In this document: piece after piece, positions 7,883 to 53,395 of the stretch
Position numbering within the stretch: position 1 is the first letter of the stretch
Layout of the letters: the number at the start of each line of letters is the position of its first letter
Source of the DNA: Actinomucor elegans
Lineage: Eukaryota; Mucoromycota; Mucoromycetes; Mucorales; Mucoraceae
Length of the DNA stretch: 64,000 nucleotides
Assembly: GCA_026027325.1 (NCBI GenBank)
Contig: JAMSLZ010000005.1
Span: forward strand, 1,860,001 to 1,924,000
Direction of reading: 5' to 3'
The notes under the pieces: model-generated
The model's database searches: none
The model's input: only the letters and a program-made list of their open reading frames with translations
What the model was told of the DNA's origin: nothing
Made by a program: the position numbers and the translations under genes

Positions 7883-10212
7883 ATTATCGAAAAAATTAGA
7901 AAATTGAAACAAAAAGAAAAGGAAAAAAAAAAGGGCTTTATTGGCACTTTTTTTTGATAGCACTCATTTTTAAAGTTATCATCGTGTGACCAGACCGTCA
8001 CATCGTTAGGATTGGCTTTTTCTTTTTCTTTTTATGATTCATTCGTAGCAAAACACTTCATCTTTATATTCACTGAATACAAGGACCCTTGAAGAATACA
8101 AATAATACTTTTGGCCTTTTTATTTGCGAGATAATCCCTTCTACTTTATATTTTGCATTAACCGGTGTAACCCGCATCTTAACCAATAAAGCGTCATCTT
8201 TCACCCGCTCCATCGTGGCAAAAAGACGCAGGTCATTCCGCCTCCTATCATTTTAAACGCGTCTATCATCAGAAAACGAGTGTACTCTTGCTGATCGATT
8301 TGCTGGGACCAATTTGATATGCACTCCTAAAAAAAGCACCAATCAGTTGGCACCTTAAGATTCCCACCCACCCATACATTTGTTTTTAAAAGCGCGCGCC
8401 TGACTAGTTCTTGTTATTAGCGCGACAGCCTACAACTAAAGCGCAGCAGTTTTTTTTTTTTGACAGTATATATTAAAAGTATCACAAAGATTAGCGCGAT
8501 CGGTTCTCGATTTAGTGATTAATCATCCTGTAAAACGTTTCTGCAAAATTACCATATCAAGAAGCCTCTAGTTACGCGAGTAAAGCACCATTTGACTAAT
8601 CAATCTACCAAATGAGAACACATTAGATGTAATAAAAACTAATCGAGTAGATCTCAGATCTTGCTAGATGCAGCTGCTCATTCCTAACATGGAGAACTAA
8701 TCAGATGCAACATTATACCGAGATCGCCCGAGATCGTTGGTATTGATTATTGCACCAAGCCATCTTTTTTCCAAGCTGAATTTTTTTTTTAATTTAATTT
8801 CCACGATTCAGAAAATTTATGCCTCAATATTTGAATTTGTATTCAATGGTAAAAGATTCATAAAAGCCATTTGAATACTTGACGTAACTTACGGAAAACC
8901 TAAATCTCCTTTGAATGATATATATATATATATTTTATAAGAAAACAATCAGAAGAGTTATTTCTACACCGGAAAAAAAACACTATGGTGTCGGAGTTGG
9001 TCAACACCTGCATTTTTCTACCTTTTAGAGATCGTCGTCATTGACACATGGTCGTGAAACATTGTAGCCATTCAAGATGAAGGGGAGTCCCAACCTTGAA
9101 TTGATACAATAAAATTGATAAGCATATGCACCTCTTCTATCACAATACTTTTTTTTTTGAATCGTAGTTTACATACTGAGACTAACGATGATACTAGAAG
9201 TGATTCATATGCCTCGACTGTCTTTAATAAATGTAAAATAGCTTTTAAAAATATTGGTCTTGGAGTTCAAAAAAGGGAAAAAAAAATGTCACAAGTAACA
9301 CATAAAGCTTATACTTTTCTTTATAGCAGCTATCTACAAATGTTACTATCAGTTGTCTCTTATATTAATTTTCTCAATCTTACTTATATTATTACATAAC
9401 CAAGAAAACTTATGTTTTAATTTCATTTGAAGTTTTTGCTTACCTTTTGATCAATATGGTAAAATCATATTTTCCTTTTAAGTAGTTTTTCTTTGTCTTC
9501 ATGTTTTCAACGATCTAGTCGGCTTGTTACATTAAAGAGCATTTTTCGTTTTCTCTGAAAACTAAGCCCGTTATTTTAAATAACATAAAACATGCTCTGT
9601 TACATATAGTAAAATGTACTCGGAGTGTCTACAATTCAAGATACGAGGTGGTCAAGAAAACCAAAGATGGACAGATATAAGCTGATCTAGTAAACAAAGG
9701 AACCAAAAAAAAAACAAGAACTACCAATACCTGCCACGTTATAAGATATAGATTAAGTCTGTTACAAGTAACTGAAAAATGCAACTTCAAAGAACTATTA
9801 CCGCTTGCGTACCTTAATCTCGGATATATAAAAACAGATATTGCTGTTGTGGTTTGCTCTGAGCATAGAACACGAATCAAGTGATATATTTAACAGGGAT
9901 CTATTACGAGATCTATTGAACTATATTTTACACGGAAATGTTCGTAGTTACCACAAGTCATTACTAACTAGTATTTTAGTTCTAGTTAATGCAGAGCTTT
10001 ATTCTGAATATGTACAACGGTCAAATGCTGCATTAAAGCGGAATCAGTCAAAGAGTAGATTGATTATTAGATCTAACTCATCTGAAAGGTACAAAAATTA
10101 TTTAGCAATATGGGATATGAGTTTCATAGTTTGAATGATAACATGCTATATATAAATTTTAATGAAATAATGTACTTAAATGCAAAGTTTTGTAATATGG
10201 AGAGAGACTAAT
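7883..10212. other. Intergenic with dispersed-repeat remnants
   Basis: AT-rich. Holds the methyltransferase promoter, GC-richer islands near 8200-8440, and at least one copy of the window-wide dispersed repeat (8664-8736), with a weaker copy near 9840-10100. Short open frames have no recognisable content. Confidence 0.6.
8664..8736 (+). repeat. Dispersed repeat family copy
   Basis: Has the family order TAGATGCAG...CTCATTC...ACTAATCAGATGCAACATT...CCGAGATCG, shared with the copies near 15.5, 26.6, 33.8, 39.5 and 47.6 kb. Confidence 0.7.
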
Positions 10213-11808
10213 TTATGGGGCAATCAAGACACGGACAGTGTTGGTGTTGCCAAGACCACCCTTCCAGCCTTGAACAATGACAACGGGATCATTAGACTTG
10301 ATGAGACCAGATTTCTTACCTTGTTGAATACCCCACTTAATACGAGATTCAACATCTTCATCCCACTTGGCAGCAACTTCACCGGTGTAAACAAAAGGGA
10401 AGACACCACGGTGAAGATGAGATTGACGAGCAGTTTGTTCTTCACGGGTAACAAGGATGATAGGCTGAGAAGGTCTGTACTTGGAAGCCAAACGAGCAGA
10501 ATGACCAGACTTGGAGAGGACAATAATGGCACCAGCATTATTCTCACTAGCAGCAGAAACTGCAGCACAAGCAACAGTCTCTGTAGTATCAGTGGGCCAA
10601 GAGGTCAAACCACGGAGTTGGTTGAAGAGAGGAGCATAACAAATGACAGATTCAGCAAGTTCACAAGTGGCAGCCATAGTAGAAACAGCTTCGATGGGAT
10701 AAGAACCTTTAGCAGTTTCACCAGAAAGCATGACGAGATCAGCACCATCAAGAACGGCATTAGCAACATCAGAGACTTCAGCACGAGTAGGACGAGGATT
10801 AAAGGTCATAGATTCGAGCATTTGAGTGGCACAGGCAACAGGCTTACCAACCAAGTTACATTTGGCAATCATCATCTTTTGAGCAACAAACACACGTTCG
10901 CAAGGAATTTCAATACCCATATCACCACGAGCAATCATAACACCATCGGTCTCGGCAAGAATCTCATCAAAGTTGACAATACCTTGGTGGTTTTCAATCT
11001 TACAGATAATCTTGACGTTCTTTCCCTTATCACCGAGAACACGACGGATATCCTTGACATCTTGAGCACGACGAATGAAAGAAGCAAAGATCATATCAAC
11101 ACCGTTCTCAACACCGAAACGAAGATCGTTCTTGTCCTTTTCAGAAAGAGCAGGAAGATCGACAGCAGTCTTGGGAAGGTTAACACCCTTCTTAGAGCAG
11201 AGCTTACCGTTGTTTTGAGCTTGAACGCGAACAAAGTCATCACCCTTGGAGATAACCTTGAAGGAAAGAACACCATCATCAACATAGATGTTCTTACCAA
11301 CATCAATGACTTTGGGCAAGTTCTTGTAATCAACATACATGTTCTCGCCATCACAAGCGTTGGCATACTTTTCATCTGTAGTAATGTTCATTTCGTGGCC
11401 CTTGGTGATAGGGACTTCAACATCATTAGCCATCATACCAGTACGGATCTCAGGACCTTTAGTATCAAGAGCGATACCAACGACCTTATCAGGACGATCT
11501 ATGAAATAATGTTAGCGTACGCGTCAAAATTTCTCTGAAAATGAAAACTTACTGGCAGCAGCAGCGCGAGCGTTGTCGAGAACAGACTTGTGATAAGCGT
11601 AATCACCATGAGAAAAGTTCATACGGACAATGTTCATACCGGCATCGATCAATTCAGTAAGTCTTTCGACGTTGTTGGTCTTGGGACCAATAGTACAGAT
11701 AATGGAAGTCTTACGGGCAGCCTTAGGTTGAACATCAACATCCATGTTGGCGATCCATTGCATAGGGAATTGGATGGGAGCTTGAGATAATTTGTTTTCG
11801 GCAAACAT
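10213..11808 (-). CDS. PYK1: Pyruvate kinase
   Basis: Last step of glycolysis: phosphoenolpyruvate + ADP to pyruvate + ATP. Two exons, 11553-11808 and 10213-11498, giving 513 aa, the usual fungal length. Visible features: IICTIGPKT near the N-terminus, active-site region MNFSHG, B domain after [18 protein letters not shown] with the catalytic Lys, [22 protein letters not shown], and a C-terminal allosteric loop region with [14 protein letters not shown]. Codon use is strongly biased, as expected for a highly expressed glycolytic gene; that bias leaves a 452-codon open frame on the opposite strand, which is an artefact. No second PYK in the window. Confidence 0.98.
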
Positions 11809-45539: not shown

Positions 45540-46370
45540 TCAAAAAGACAAGTCGCAATGTTCTAGTAGTGGGCAATGTTGAACTAGTCGCTTTTTAGAC
45601 TCTTCCGAAGCAATGCGTATTTGGCCACGACAAACGAGCTTTTTTAAATGCTTACAACCACCCAAAGCTTCCAACGATGCAGCTGTAATAGTGTTAGATT
45701 GGATTATATATTTAGGCAGTGTCACGATTAAGGTTTCAATTAAAGGACAGTTCCGTACGATGGCTAGAATGCCTGTATCAGACATGTAGCCTGATCTTTG
45801 TGAGCTGAAATACCGTAACTTGGGAGTGCCAGATGTTATTTCCTCCACCAGCGAATCTGTCATGTAGCAATCTTGTATAGAGATCCTATGGATATTGCTC
45901 TTCTTTTTAGTTAACTGCGCTGCAAGGCTAAAAGTCATATCTGTGCAGCAATTGGAAATGTCAATTTCTTGCAGTCTATGTTGAACGAATAAGCCCAAGA
46001 ACGGGTTGCAAATGTCTATACTGGCTTGTAGATTGTTGAGTCGTAATGTGCGTATGGTAATGGAGATAGAGCAGTCCAGATCTAGTATTTTATAGTCGTC
46101 TATATGTTGAGCCAAAGGAAACGAGATAGTGAGTCCTACCAGCCAGGTATGATATGGATATGCGTTGGTTTGAGTATTATTGTATGTATGCATAAATGAT
46201 TTCAAGGCCATAAGGGAACTGCATGTTGGTGTATGCCATAATTGCTTTATACTGATATGTGCTATAAATTTTGAAACAATACCAAGTTCTAATTGCGATC
46301 TTTGATCGAGGTAATGAGTAATGTGAATGAGAACGTCAACAGGTAAACCCGTTAAAGTTTTCTGAGTCAT
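45540..46370 (-). CDS. F-box / leucine-rich repeat protein, possible frameshifted C-terminus
   Basis: Substrate-recognition subunit of an SCF ubiquitin ligase by family inference. Single exon, 276 aa. F-box at residues 5-50 (LTGLPVDVLIHITHYLDQRS, then LWHTP), followed by irregular leucine-rich repeats (LQEIDISNCCTDMTF, IHRISIQDCYM, LETLIVTLP, LKKLVCRG, LLEHCDLSF). The reading frame stops at 45540 just after a T5 run; another frame on the same strand stays open from there to 45349 (about 65 codons) and reads like ordinary protein, so the natural gene may be longer with a frameshift at this T run. No intron that joins the frames was found. Target unknown. Confidence 0.75.
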   Translation of the reverse strand: MTQKTLTGLPVDVLIHITHYLDQRSQLELGIVSKFIAHISIKQLWHTPTCSSLMALKSFMHTYNNTQTNAYPYHTWLVGLTISFPLAQHIDDYKILDLDCSISITIRTLRLNNLQASIDICNPFLGLFVQHRLQEIDISNCCTDMTFSLAAQLTKKKSNIHRISIQDCYMTDSLVEEITSGTPKLRYFSSQRSGYMSDTGILAIVRNCPLIETLIVTLPKYIIQSNTITAASLEALGGCKHLKKLVCRGQIRIASEESKKRLVQHCPLLEHCDLSF

Positions 46371-47639
46371 AACAAAAAGTGATGCTTACAAGAGAAAGAA
46401 GAACTTTTGTCCTTTAAAGCCTTTGTCTTCAAGAATCAGCCTGATAGATATTTGAGGAAAAAAACAATAATAATAATAAAAAAAAAAGAGTTAGCGTCAA
46501 TTACCTTTTTCTCTGGAGATGTCCGTCAATTTCTACTCCTCTAGCTATTTCTACTCTCGAACCAAATCAATCTTAACTACAGTCAGAAAAAAAACACCTT
46601 TCTCTACTTGAAACAACTCCATGATTTAGATATCCCTTGGAATACATAATAGATAAACAGTTTATGTATTAATTAAACTGCCCCCATAGCAAACGCAATC
46701 TTGTGTTTGCGTAACCTTCAATAGAACTTCATGCATGATTGAATAGACCAGCACAAGGTGGAATCCACGCGTTATCCCTATTATTATTAGTTTTAGTTGC
46801 CGTCATCTCAACGCATTAAGCTACAATGCCCATGGTCAACTAATACTCTATTATTTTTTATATCCTGTCAGCATTGTTTTATTTTAAAAATGTTTCTTAT
46901 GGCCCCAAGGCAGTAGCCATGCTAAAGGTATCATATTCTGATTTTAGAGCAGTTTTTGATTAAGTTTTAAGGGCGGAATGCAAATGTGCGGGCTTAGATG
47001 CACATGCTATGATGATATAGAATCAATACCCATACTCCAGTAAGCTTGCTTCAAGTCAACAGAGCATGGATTCTGGTTATCATCCATTTGATTTACTGCT
47101 GATCTGTGTGCATTTTTTTTTTTTTTTTTTACCTAGGCTCTTGTCGGTGGCAACTGTAGGTTCTAGGACACTATCGCTTTCTATTAATCCATATAAACAT
47201 TGACGATATACGTCATAAGACTGCTTCATTTAATTTTCTCGAGAAATGACTAGGTCTATATTATATCATACTGCGTATTTGCTACAACTAGGTATTTAAA
47301 TATAAAATCCATTCAGCTTTTTGTTTAAGTTAACGCTAATAATAATAAACAAAAATGAAATAAACATGCCCAAGTTAAGACGAACATTTCAATAGGAAGA
47401 ACAATTTACTCTGAGAATGGATTACTAATCAACTGTGACATTTGCCCGAAATTAATTAGGGGATTCAAAAAATGAATAGGCATTTCGAGATGAAATACAT
47501 ACAATATACTGTTGATCATTAATGGCATAAAATATACTCATTGTATTTCAATTAAGCAAATAATTTCTCAAATGCAGAGGTTGGTCCTAAGCATAAAATA
47601 TTTATCAAGAGATTTTTGACCGAGATTGACCGAGAGATC
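46371..47639. other. Intergenic upstream of the F-box gene
   Basis: No gene seen. T22 at 47111-47132; dispersed-repeat copies begin near 47395 and 47571. Confidence 0.6.
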
Positions 47640-47690
47640 CGATAAATCTATACATTTAGTTTGTATGAAATGTATGCAATTGATTGTCAA
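47571..47690 (+). repeat. Dispersed repeat family copy (well preserved 3' half)
   Basis: TTTTTGACCGAGATTGACCGAGAGATCC, ATACATTTAGTTTGTATG and TTGATTGTCAAGGATAAAAATG; this tail also occurs inverted at 53315-53395. Confidence 0.7.
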
Positions 47691-49034
47691 GGATAAAAAT
47701 GTAACACATACATATTACTTTAGTCAAAGAATTGTTCAGATGAATACAGTGGTTTGTTTTGAGAATAAAACATTAATCAAATGTGACATTGGCTGAGAAA
47801 TCTAAAGTAAATGAAAATGAAAATGAAATGACATTCCACAAAACCCTTGAGAGGGATGGTTCTAATTTCATATTTTTGAACTTCGCTCCATTGTTACCAA
47901 GATTTTAGTGATAGATGCTCTCAAGATAATCAATAAATTATATATACTTAGCATTATAATATTATAGTAGTTTATAGTTGGCTTGTTCTAAAAAAAAAAT
48001 ATAGATGAATTTCTCATTATGTTCTTTTTAAGGAAATAAATGCACTTATTGGATTTAAGTAGTAATAACTTCCTACTACTAACTTATGTAACATGAATGT
48101 GAACCACCAACCATTTGCTTGTTACTACAAAAAGCGGAACTCTTTTTTTTAATTGATTATCATATCAAAGTCTGACAATTCATTCATTGAGTATCTTGAG
48201 GGTACCTAATGTGAAATTGTTAGATTAAAAGGCATATCTTTTCCGCAATTTCTGAAACTGAACCATTTTTTTAACATTTCTACATATTTCGACCGATTCA
48301 AATTTAATGTCCTATTGAGTGATTAACACATGTTCAGAATGAACCTACGCATTAATAGATACCCTTAAAGAATAAGAGATTTGAGATCAAATTATCTAAA
48401 CGAAATGCTTTTATAGATTGGAGTGATATAGAACAAGTACCGCATTTAATGATTAGTCAATGCTCAGGATGAGCTTCCCGCAATTTTTCTAAATTCGATA
48501 GAGTGTATCTAAAGGTAGACAGTCCTGCAAGTCTAAACATACCATTTCTTCATGATATAGTTTAAGGACTCTTCTACTATATTTTATCTATTAAACAATA
48601 AGCTCAATGTATGTACTCAAAATAACTTCATAATAGCCTATGCTCTCCAAGTTTTGCATTCTGTGTTCTTTTTGAAGCGAATGATAGAAGTAATCAAGCA
48701 CAGTCTTTAAAAGTAATGAAATCAGCTGTGCTGTTTGATATAATGGCTTCATAATTCGCAGGCTTGCTCTTGCTTGTAATGTTCAGTAGTGGACTTCAGT
48801 GGTACTCTCTCCGAAAATCATGTATCGTTATGATGGCTCACTTGTTCCCATATAAGATATCCCGTATGAGGTCTCTTTTATTCTATCCTATTTCTGATTA
48901 CAACAGGTAGACTTTCCATCCATCAGATACTGTCAGTGGCTGATTTACAGCCGAAGATGTCTATATATATGCCTTGTAAATGTGAGTGAAATGCGTACAT
49001 TTATTTGAATCTGTGACGCATAGTAGATATATAT

Positions 49035-49092
<58 letters not shown>

Positions 49093-49093
49093 A
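49035..49093. repeat. Compound (AC)n(AT)n(GT)n microsatellite
   Basis: AC units, about 19 AT units and GT units in a row, itself a perfect hairpin-former; the matching place in the right arm (about 52105-52135) is much shorter. Confidence 0.9.
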
Positions 49094-49267
49094 CCGATCT
49101 ATTAGTACTGGAAGTACAATCCAGTCAGAAATAAAGCATGTATTTTATTTGCTAGCATCCACTGTTCATTCTGGATTACATGTTATGTACACACAATACT
49201 TTAACAATAATTAGTTTGGCAAGGTAAAAAGATGAAAGTTTATTTGTTATTATGTAACATCATCTAC

Positions 49268-49603
49268 CTAGAAGTCGATATTCTCGCAAAAGGGTGGAAC
49301 TCCCAGACTTTCTTGAGTGTCTCTTAGCATACCATTTTGTTGCTGGCACCAATCAGACAATCGGTCTACATCAGGCCATCCACTATCAATAAAACAAACT
49401 GTACACGAGCTTTTTTGGTCATCCGAAAAGCAATTTTGAGGTCCTAATATACCATTAATCGCTGGGCATTCCTTCTCAATACCCTTGATAGCACAAGGAC
49501 GTCCATACGGTCTTCCACAGTAGAAGTAGGCTATCTCCGCAGAAGCACTGTTAATAACAATAGCTAAGATCAATGAAGCACCAGTAACAATTGAAAATTT
49601 CAT
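49268..49603 (-). CDS. Small secreted eight-cysteine protein, paralog A
   Basis: Intronless, 111 aa. Signal peptide about 22 aa (MKFSIVTGASLILAIVINS with small residues before the cleavage site) followed by an 89-aa mature part with eight Cys, enough for four disulfides, in the order YFYC, RPC, KEC, QNC, SSC, TVC, DWC, PFC. No family recognised; the layout is that of small secreted (effector-like) fungal proteins, but a role is not shown. Paralog B (51595-51930) has the same length and all eight Cys in register, with 43 of 89 mature residues identical. The start is the Met shared with B; a longer upstream frame reads the TATA box and leader. It points away from B within an inverted duplication. 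Confidence 0.85.
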   Translation of the reverse strand: MKFSIVTGASLILAIVINSASAEIAYFYCGRPYGRPCAIKGIEKECPAINGILGPQNCFSDDQKSSCTVCFIDSGWPDVDRLSDWCQQQNGMLRDTQESLGVPPFCENIDF

Positions 49604-49672
49604 GATTTTGTATACTAATAAAGTTGTGTATAGATAGTTTAAAGTAAGAGAGAGAAAAAGATACAAACCGTC

Positions 49673-49682
49673 TTTTATATAT
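49673..49682 (-). promoter_or_regulatory. TATA box of secreted paralog A
   Basis: TATATAAAAG on the minus strand about 70-80 bp before the start codon, inside a leader almost identical to that of paralog B. Confidence 0.65.
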
Positions 49683-50290
49683 GTATTTTTTTCTGAAAAA
49701 AAGTTATTTAGACGTAACGTGTTATATTCCATGTAGATCTTACTATTGCAGATGCTGCTCTTGGCTAAATTCGGTTTATTACAAAGAATGTAGATCTGTA
49801 ATTAATGAGTACATAGAAACTAAATCATTGCAAACTCGTATATATTCGCTTGTCTCCTGTCCATATAAAAAAGAAGGAACGGTTTGAATACTAGTGAAGT
49901 TTTGAAAGGTACCAAATCCTCCGCCTGACAGTTGATCATAAAATGAAAAGCTTCTTTAGTGCATCAGAAGCTGACTTGAAGGAGATGGTCTGTAAATAGG
50001 CAATCTGTTTACAACAGCTGGAAAATGCATGGACTTTTCTGAAATAAAAAAAAATGTCACTGATTAAGGTACAAGCCTATGACTACCTATCATGGACATG
50101 TAATGCTTCGATCGGACTTGTGCTTATAAATGGTCGCATGCAAGTCTTTATACTTTATCCAAGAGGAATGCAGGACACATATTATCCAAAGCATGATAAG
50201 GCAGCATGGTAATGACTATTACAAAAATTCTCACTTCTCCGGCTAATGAGAGATAAACAGCATCCGCAAAAAAAAAAGGTCAATCCAGCA

Positions 50291-50897
50291 CAACATGAAA
50301 GTAAGACAGAAGGTATAAAGTCGAGAATGGTGTAAAAAACGCCCAAAACGCATACATAACAAAGTAAGTAAAACTTGGAATGCAATAATACAATAAAGGG
50401 TTTGATCTTAGAAATAGCATTTACGGAAACCTCGCTCTTGGGAGTCGCGTTTATAAATCTTAAACCAGCTAGCAGTGCTCTTGAAATATACTCTGCTTCT
50501 TTATTGGTTGTTCCCGCTAATATTTTTTACTTTTTCCTTCAACCATGGTTCTGATCTAGCTGTTATACCAATAAAAGAACTGATGATTCTATCAAATCAT
50601 TAATATGATATATGACCTTGAAGTATGCGAATAAACCTATGCTAATATTGATGAACAAGACGCTGTAACACGTAACTACTACTCATCTAGACATAAGGTT
50701 GGAGTATCATGCAGGATGAGCATGTAGATACTGGTCAGCATTCTCCAGCTCGCCCATTTGCATATACATGAACCGAGCAGCATTGTATCAGATTTTTAGG
50801 ATACGAAAAGCTTAAAATTACTATCTTTACAAAGCATATTCAAAATAATTAAGCAACTGTCTATTGGTCATATATTAGTATGCCATCCTTGTGCTCT

Positions 50898-50900
<3 letters not shown>
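50291..50900. other. Centre of the large inverted duplication
   Basis: About 600 bp of AT-rich sequence not clearly mirrored. The left arm ends at A10 (50267-50276) and the right arm begins at T31 (50901-50931), the same tract in both arms at different length. Confidence 0.6.

Positions 50901-50931
<31 letters not shown>
50901..50931. repeat. Poly(T)31 at the inner edge of the right arm
   Basis: Uninterrupted T run directly before the mirrored sequence GCTGATGCTGTTTATC; its mirror in the left arm is only A10. Confidence 0.95.
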
Positions 50932-50935
<4 letters not shown>

Positions 50936-51516
50936 ATGCTGTTTATCCCTCATTAGCCGGAGAAGTGGGAGTTTTGGTAATAGTCATTACCATGCTGCCT
51001 TATCATGCTTTGGATAATATGTGTCCTGCATTCCTCTTGGATAAAGTATAAAGACTTGCATGCGGTCATTTCTAAGCACAAATCCGATTGAAGCATTACA
51101 TATCCATGGTAGGTAGTCATAGGCTTGTACCTTAATCAGTGACATTTTTTTTTATTTCAGAAAAGTCCATGCATTTTCCAGCTGTTGTAAACAGATTGCC
51201 TATTTACAGACCATCTCCTTCAAGTCAGCTTCTGATGTGCTAAAGAAGCTCTTTAGTTTATGACTAACTGTTAAGTGGTGAATTTGGTACCTTCCAGAGT
51301 TCTATTAGTAGTAAAATCACTCTCTCTTACCTATATGGATAGGAGACAAGCGAGTAGATACGAATTTGCCATGGTTCGGTTTCTATGTATTCAATAGTTG
51401 CAGATCTATATTCTTTGTAATAAAACAAGTTTGGTTAAGAGCTGCAACTGCAATAGCAAGATCTACATGGAGCATAATACACTACATCCAAATATTTTTT
51501 TTCAGAAAAAAATGCA

Positions 51517-51526
51517 TATATAAAAG
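51517..51526 (+). promoter_or_regulatory. TATA box of secreted paralog B
   Basis: TATATAAAAG about 70-78 bp before the start codon, followed by a CT-rich leader identical to that of paralog A. Confidence 0.65.
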
Positions 51527-51594
51527 ACGGTTTGTATCTTTTTCTCTCTCTTACTTTAAACTATCTATACACAACTTTATTAGTATACAAAATC

Positions 51595-51930
51595 ATGAAA
51601 TTTTCAATTGTTACTGGTGCCTCATTGATATTAGCCATTGCTATTAACAGTGTTACTGCGTCTCAAATCTACTTCCACTGTCAGAGAAATGATGCACCTA
51701 TTTGTCCTTTGAAGGGTATTGAGGAGGTATGCCCAGCGACTAATGGTGAATTCGGACCTCAAGATTGCTTTTCGGATGACCAAAAAAGCGTATGTGGAAC
51801 TTGCTCCATTGATGATCATTCAGCTGAAATAGGCCAATTGTTTGATTGGTGTCTGAAAAAGAATGGTCTACCAACAATGTCTCAAGAAAAACCGCAATTT
51901 CCACCCTTTTGCGGGGGTATCAACTTCTAG
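51595..51930 (+). CDS. Small secreted eight-cysteine protein, paralog B
   Basis: Intronless, 111 aa, same length as paralog A with no gaps. The signal peptide (MKFSIVTGASLILAIAINS) differs from A only at a few positions. The mature part keeps all eight Cys (YFHC, PIC, EVC, QDC, SVC, GTC, DWC, PFC) and the patches LKGIEEVCPA, GPQDCFSDDQKS, FDWC and FPPFC, but over half of the other residues differ, mostly by amino-acid-changing substitutions, while promoter, leader and 3' flank stay much more alike. Family not recognised; extracellular location is inferred from the signal peptide and Cys pattern. Confidence 0.85.
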   Translation: MKFSIVTGASLILAIAINSVTASQIYFHCQRNDAPICPLKGIEEVCPATNGEFGPQDCFSDDQKSVCGTCSIDDHSAEIGQLFDWCLKKNGLPTMSQEKPQFPPFCGGINF

Positions 51931-53395
51931 ATGGATAACGTTACATAATAACAAATAAACTTCCATTTTTTTTACCTTGCTAAACTAGTTATTGTAAAAG
52001 TACTGTGTGTACATAACATGTAATCCAGAGTGAACAATGAATGTTAGTAAATAAAATACACACTTTTTTCTAACTGGATTTTACTTCCAGTACTAATAGA
52101 TCGGTACATACACACACATATATATATATATATGCATCTAATGTGTATCACAGATTCAAATAAGAGTACACGTTTCACTCACATTTATAGGGCAAATATA
52201 CATATATATAGGTATCCTTGGCTGTGAATCAGCCACCAATAGTGTTTAATGGATAAGGAGTTTACTTGTTGCAACCAAAAAAAGGGTAGAATAAAAGAGA
52301 GCCTAGGTTATTGTGAAGTTATTTTGAATACATAAATTGAACTTATTGTTTAGTAGATAGAATATATTAAAGTACTTAAGCTAAAGCACAAAGAGTATAT
52401 TCAAACTTGCAGGGCTGCCTTGCAGAATTATCTCTTAGACGTACTTTATCGAATAGAAAAGTTACAAAAAAAATTATTCTATCTCATTTTATAGAAATAG
52501 AAGCTCATTCTGAGCATTAGTTAGTCATGAAATACAATACTTGACTTCAGATTGCTCTAACGATCTATAAAAGCAGTTTGTTTAGATGCTTAATCTCAAA
52601 TCTCAATCTTTAAAGATATCTATCTACTAATACATAGATTCATTCTCATTCTGAACGTGTGCTAATCATGATATATTAGATTTGAATCGATCGAGAGATG
52701 TAGAGATGTTAAAATGGTCCGATTTCTGAAAATGTCGCGATAGTATTCCCTTTAATTCAATTTTTTCATATTAGGTGCTCTCAAAATACTCAATGAATGA
52801 ATTGTTGAGCCTTGGTATAGTAATCAATAATAATGAACTCCACTTTTATGCTAATAAGTTAAATAGTTGGTGGCTCACAATCATAGTATTACATGAGCTA
52901 GGGTATTGTTACTTAAGCCAGATGAATGCATTTGCTCCCTTGAAAAGAGCAAAATGAGAAGCTTATGGCTCAAAACAATTAGACTTTTTCGTGGCTTTGA
53001 GTTATAGTATAAATCAACTATAAACTAATATACTAGACAGGTATAATCCATTCTTTGATCGTCTTGAGAGTATCTATTACTAATAGTTAGCTCTCCTAAT
53101 TACTGTTTACATAATAATGTCAAAACATATGCTAATAAAAATGAAGCCACAACAAAAGGACCATCCTTCAAAGATCTCATGAAAAATCTTTTTATTTTCA
53201 TCTACTTTAGACCACTCAGTCAATGTCATAACTGATTAGCGCTTTATGCTCAGAATGAATCGCTACGTCCATCCAAACTATTCGATAACTTTAATTAAAG
53301 TGTTATGAATGTATTATATTTTTGCCCTTGACAATCAATTATACACATTTTATGAAAATCAAATGTATAGGTTTATAGGTCTCTTAGCTAACCTC

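Follow-up and report, generated by a model that had tools for sequence, protein, structure and literature searches.

We describe here a family of short, cysteine-rich proteins in the Mucorales fungus Actinomucor elegans, which is characterised by a scaffold of eight cysteines and, as our codon tests show, by diversifying selection on the mature part between gene M and P-type genes. The family includes broken copies, and the arms of the duplication that carries M and its partner P show mosaic site patterns indicating gene conversion. The window, by which we mean the whole stretch of 64,000 nucleotides that was analysed, is part of contig C23 of a genome of 36.5 Mb in 27 contigs, and the two genes lie head to head within it. 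Our best explanation, which we hold to be rather probable, is that these are acidic, secreted, disulfide-rich proteins of a lineage-restricted Mucorales family, used in antagonism with other organisms.

The gene pair and its family

Both genes have 111 codons and a stop, and they sit in an inverted duplication that extends from 47633 to 53384. The features are listed below. The element TATATAAAA upstream of both genes is one that we take to be TATA-like.

47633..50277: left arm of the inverted duplication
49268..49603, minus strand: gene M, predicted secreted eight-Cys protein of 111 aa (P0001)
49268..49537, minus strand: mature part of M, including the stop codon
49538..49603, minus strand: signal peptide of M, 22 codons, putative cut after A22 placed by inspection
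49604..49713, minus strand: core promoter and 5' leader of M, TATA-like TATATAAAA at 49673-49681
49714..49903, minus strand: non-coding stretch at about -300 to -110 upstream of M
50278..50921: spacer between the arms
50922..53384: right arm of the inverted duplication
51485..51594, plus strand: core promoter and 5' leader of P, TATA-like TATATAAAA at 51517-51525
51595..51930, plus strand: gene P, predicted secreted eight-Cys protein of 111 aa (P0002)
51595..51660, plus strand: signal peptide of P, 22 codons, putative cut site
51661..51930, plus strand: mature part of P, including the stop codon
52297..53384, plus strand: distal 3' part of the right arm, mate of 47633-48647

In local alignment the arms are 82% identical over 1,415 columns and, more weakly, 66% over a further 1,137. 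Since they align over such long stretches, the likeness of M and P is not due to chance. The first-pass annotation had described a mirror-placed pair of equal length, and the two coding sequences, on opposite strands, indeed align with zero gaps. It had also noted near identity over about 85 bp before the ATG and in the signal peptide, where we count 84 of 85 alignment columns and 19 of 22 residues; our counts for the mature part (43 of 89 residues identical, all eight cysteines kept) are the same as those given there. The reading frame of M is open further upstream (49604-49732) to an earlier in-frame ATG, which would give an ORF of 154 aa. We prefer the 111 aa start because the TATA-like element falls inside the extension of the longer ORF.

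Both proteins begin with a hydrophobic leader of 22 residues, judged by inspection, and have cysteines at 29, 37, 46, 58, 67, 70, 86 and 106. The chance of all eight being kept between M and P is 0.002. The eight columns are invariant in all six intact members of the family, of which C10a carries a ninth cysteine, and the mature proteins of all six are acidic, with a charge of -5.0 to -8.2 and a pI of 4.3-4.8. M and P can be described as small secreted cysteine-rich proteins in that they are short, have a leader by inspection and share a conserved Cys pattern. From these features we infer secretion and disulfide bonds for the family.

Protein queries against the same genome (E up to 10) found at least eight family loci: six of the genes are intact, one is frameshifted and one copy is a relic. 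A second inverted pair lies about 56 kb away on C23, with its gene Lp intact and its minus gene Lm (C23:1968321-1968663; L018 2322-2664) frameshifted early in the mature part, so that broken copies exist within the genome itself. One family gene of 110 aa is found on contig C1, and two same-strand genes of 108 and 110 aa, C10a and C10b, are found on C10. The C10 neighbours (L022 2865-3197 and 3946-4272) are about 0.75 kb apart and 51% alike, and represent a direct, not an inverted, duplication. In the relic on C26 neither start nor frame is intact. The left arm of the first pair contains an AC/AT/GT microsatellite at about 49031-49093, whose counterparts in the right arm and the second pair are shorter.

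Probable gene conversion and selection along the arms

Far upstream, the K2P distance between the arms is 0.045. It rises to 0.087 at -550 to -300 and 0.285 (77.4% identity) at -300 to -110, drops to 0.038 in the core promoter, and then amounts to 0.098 for the signal peptide and 0.351 for the mature coding part. Downstream, the near 3' flank is 88.6% identical over its first 167 compared positions (K2P 0.127). The distal 3' part, aligned globally within somewhat wider limits, reaches 0.335 over 993 compared columns, with a further 394 columns containing gaps, and in the right arm its longest stop-to-stop frame is 60 codons. An earlier description of the 3' flank as about 85% alike therefore suits the near part but not the distal one. 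The first-pass annotation had furthermore argued that the coding DNA diverges faster than its flanks. This is true in comparison with the promoter and the near 3' flank, but two non-coding stretches, at 0.285 and 0.335, are about as diverged as the mature part. The coding DNA is not simply diverging faster than its surroundings, as the unconverted-looking flank stretches have diverged to about the same degree.

Taking the second pair for reference, we find 18 informative sites that unite the two arms within a pair, 38 that unite like arms across the two pairs and 10 that support the third grouping. Sites of the first kind predominate from -642 to -361 and from -108 to +107; like-arm sites do so from -332 to -149 and from +219 to +375, and past this last interval the pattern is mixed. 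The labels of these two kinds form 8 runs; in 100,000 shuffles so low a number never occurred. We read this mosaic as arm-to-arm gene conversion over the promoter and leader, and the stretch at -300 to -110 upstream of M as unconverted. Constraint may act on promoter and leader too: at the aligned place M, P, Lm, Lp and C1 have an intact TATA-like element, which is changed in C10a, C10b and C26, and even the distant C10 copies retain a recognisable pyrimidine-rich leader. Palindromes of the Y chromosome also have arms with gene conversion. The M/P arms are like them in being inverted and apparently homogenised in tracts, but they are just 82% alike over the core, and their coding middle escapes and diversifies.

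The flanks are a weak argument for selection, because the promoter, signal peptide and far upstream part mostly carry conversion-type sites. In places flank and coding divergence are nearly equal, a pattern that the first-pass annotation had named as speaking against selection, but the excess of dN over dS between M and P stands. For the mature part, NG86 gives a dN of 0.397 and a dS of 0.195, and the ranges obtained are 0.40-0.47 for dN and 0.15-0.20 for dS. A maximum likelihood codon model, for which as for all codon models we used our own code, gives an omega of 3.23 (2dlnL 8.24 against omega 1, p 0.004), with a range of 2.0-3.2 for this pair. When separate divergences are allowed for low- and high-divergence blocks, the limits of which were picked after inspection of the data, omega reaches 4.0 (p 0.0019); fixing kappa at 4.0 or 9.4 makes the signal grow. 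Plain counts of sites give marginal one-sided values, p 0.030 for nonsynonymous against synonymous sites and p 0.040 against the -300 to -110 stretch.

The frameshifted Lm and the C26 relic were excluded from all dN/dS tests. Our four-sequence tests used P, Lp, M and C1 (84 codons, gap columns dropped, the two C10 genes excluded). A single omega on this tree is 1.82 (p 0.041), and the comparison of M1a with M2a gives a 2dlnL of 33.0, a value that none of 181 simulated nulls reached. About 57% of sites are assigned an omega of 8.5, and 41 of the 84 codons have a posterior above about 0.9. Because unequal divergence along the gene, as caused by conversion, can mimic such a signal, we added synonymous rate variation. 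The statistic then is 18.15, which none of 205 simulated nulls reached (the largest being 8.8), and for all six intact members (78 codons, gap columns dropped) it is 14.1 (p 0.0009). Site models assume one tree, which conversion between paralogs breaks, and these rest on four to six sequences. Pairwise tests need no such assumption. The intact genes form 15 pairs, of which two, M-P and M-Lp, have an omega significantly higher than 1 (2dlnL over 3.84) and three, all with C10b (dS about 2), an omega below 1. The other ten do not differ from 1, including M, P and Lp each with C1 (1.2-1.5) and C10a-C10b (0.58-0.69). The diversifying selection suspected earlier is supported by the codon tests, for two of them with simulated nulls.

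The signal is not evenly spread along the protein. In residues 66-99 of M and P, pN (0.377) is close to pS (0.355), and residues 37-65 and 100-111 taken together have 18 nonsynonymous and no synonymous differences (p 0.018 for the split). The coding differences between M and P comprise 38 transitions and 37 transversions, whereas the two non-coding stretches of higher divergence have 220 and 81 (p 0.0003). Multi-nucleotide mutation was considered as a source of the high omega. Adjacent differences number 29 in the coding part against 20.8 expected, and 10 in the -300 to -110 flank against 9.5 expected, a figure that is based on 43 flank differences; this pattern argues against it.

It is conceivable that conversion explains the entire pattern. 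The arms would then be old, with promoter, signal peptide and near flanks converted and the mature part left unconverted, under weak constraint and without positive selection. The two non-coding stretches about as diverged as mature DNA, the blockwise switching of the site patterns, the even pN and pS of residues 66-99 and the ten pairs whose omega does not differ from 1 all suit this explanation. We nevertheless consider it unlikely: the mature dS of M and P is well below their dN, the excess survives both separate block divergence and synonymous rate variation, the cysteines are retained amid change, and the coding part is free of indels. Diversifying selection beside conversion is the reading that we prefer.

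Relatives, domains and folds

Two queries against 5.8 billion proteins returned 2 proteins out of 4 candidates and 5 out of 176. All matches were this genome's own family members: the five distinct sequences are identical to Lp, C1, C10a, C10b and a longer frame that ends in M. As a control we used a neighbouring F-box gene (45540-46370), which returned 18 proteins, itself included, among them matches in Mucor plumbeus (54%) and M. ambiguus (51%), so relatives of the fungus are present in the database. A primer from a Mucor paper (PMC3828624) also matches the genome at one site, with 3 mismatches and no match for the backward-read control, next to open frames that resemble an aspartic protease; taken with the F-box result, this places the genome near Mucor in the Mucorales, short of a species. 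The eight-Cys family would appear to be either lineage-restricted or too fast-changing for detection via shared five-residue words. Pfam gave rows for the family members below its cut-offs, and no family was assigned. There was no row from tblastn against a plasmid collection or from Rfam on the window. One PDB search by sequence gave a single row at E 0.49 and the second gave none.

Several known classes were compared and rejected. A CFEM domain is one of them, as its profile is absent from the Pfam matches of six members at E 1, and a cationic defensin-like antimicrobial peptide is another, given the net negative charge of all six intact members. Hydrophobins have eight cysteines with two adjacent Cys-Cys doublets, and the cysteines of M and P include no doublet.

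A different kind of wall protein could still be imagined. M and P might be structural or surface-coat proteins of the wall of spores or hyphae, in which the sequence around the disulfide scaffold is loosely specified, and their apparent secretion, richness in cysteines, acidity and multiple copies would agree with that. We regard this as quite unlikely, since loose constraint yields an omega of up to 1 but not above, the hydrophobins are ruled out by the missing Cys pairs, and the six members match no wall family in Pfam at E 1.

The structure prediction and remote-homology search proposed by the first-pass annotation brought little: two models were poor (mean pLDDT 52 and 48), Foldseek found no significant fold match with them, and no family or fold could be assigned. 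With one weak model, two KP6 chains (79 and 77 residues) ranked third and seventh, at E 2.7 and 3.7; the fold search using the model of gene M, also poor, did not list KP6. This raises the question whether the proteins are chromosomal antifungal or effector proteins folded like the Ustilago KP6 subunit, an alpha/beta sandwich. A KP6-like fold has two helices and 2-4 disulfides. KP6-like effectors and the KP6 killer toxin are small, secreted and Cys-rich, as M and P are predicted to be (PMC9632046, PMC10462633), and candidate effectors of this kind, with 2-4 predicted disulfides, have been described in plant-pathogenic fungi (PMC9632046). For the M/P family we found no significant sequence or fold match to KP6, only a weak, non-significant rank with one model, and the poor quality of the models gives both this rank and its absence for gene M little weight. 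We see such a fold as improbable, slightly more so than a role in the wall.

Putative role of the family

That the pair is merely a set of non-functional, drifting duplicates is very improbable: one sister gene is frameshifted and one copy is a relic, but six frames are intact with invariant cysteines, M-P omega is above 1 rather than at 1, and the core promoter is alike in five copies. The role that we infer for the family is extracellular antagonism. Positive selection between fixed cysteines, together with export signals and gene turnover, fits a changing partner outside the cell. According to this proposal, the conserved core promoter and signal peptide would drive expression and export of each protein, and the eight cysteines would form a fixed scaffold with a surface between them under positive diversifying selection. 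This variable surface might bind a changing extracellular partner, with microbial competitors, hosts and non-self fungi as candidates. Copies would arise by duplication of units of about 1-3 kb, inverted in two cases, and the arms would partly homogenise one another through gene conversion, with some copies dying.

The proposal can be compared with several known systems. Fungal small secreted cysteine-rich proteins and candidate effectors are similarly short, with a signal peptide (here by inspection) and many cysteines, and they share with our family the lack of homologs found outside the genome, the diversifying mature part and the organisation as paralogs. Diversifying selection, which is usual but not required in effectors, is found in the mature part, with pairwise significance in 2 of 15 pairs. 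The M/P family differs from candidate effectors in belonging to a Mucorales fungus and in having no Pfam family. Venom-peptide and defensin families are known for a conserved leader and a hypervariable mature part. The conserved signal peptide, fixed Cys framework and positive selection between cysteines are the same in our family, but no sequence link between them is shown.

Most of what is known about arms-race proteins concerns plant-pathogenic Dikarya. Searching the open-access literature by titles and abstract starts, we found nothing on selection on secreted proteins in Mucorales or Mucoromycota; a search for Mucor effectors and small secreted cysteine-rich proteins found no Mucorales protein family by title, and general surveys may touch on it. 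Judged by its sequences, the orphan family is new and its kind is already known, namely secreted, disulfide-rich, diversifying fungal proteins. A more far-reaching idea, which we consider doubtful, is an undescribed antagonism or recognition system of the Mucorales as early-diverging fungi, in which secreted eight-Cys specificity proteins are encoded in palindromic pairs, conversion keeps promoter, leader and scaffold uniform, and selection parts the mature proteins. A single locus would then export two specificities using one shared regulatory sequence. Should the proteins be directed at competitors or hosts, their variable residues would point to the binding surface. With its intact, frameshifted and relic copies and its converted- and unconverted-looking tracts, the family offers a compact and testable case.

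The spacer between the arms (50278-50921) is homologous to sequence in the second pair, the C1 copy, the C26 copy and an inverted relic on contig C1 (C1:4300359-4301505; L021 3360-4506). The inverted relic matches the spacer module alone and is without a recognised family gene. Its match stops at window position 50921, in a poly-T run (50901-50931), and adjoins 50922, where the homology of the gene-bearing arms starts. An isolated match of 67-68% to the upstream region, with no family gene found beside it, lies at C23:2243721-2244055 (L023). Elsewhere in the window, a 452-codon ORF at 10180-11538 runs antisense to a 407-codon ORF that presumably encodes a pyruvate kinase, and the antisense frame is perhaps a by-product of codon bias.
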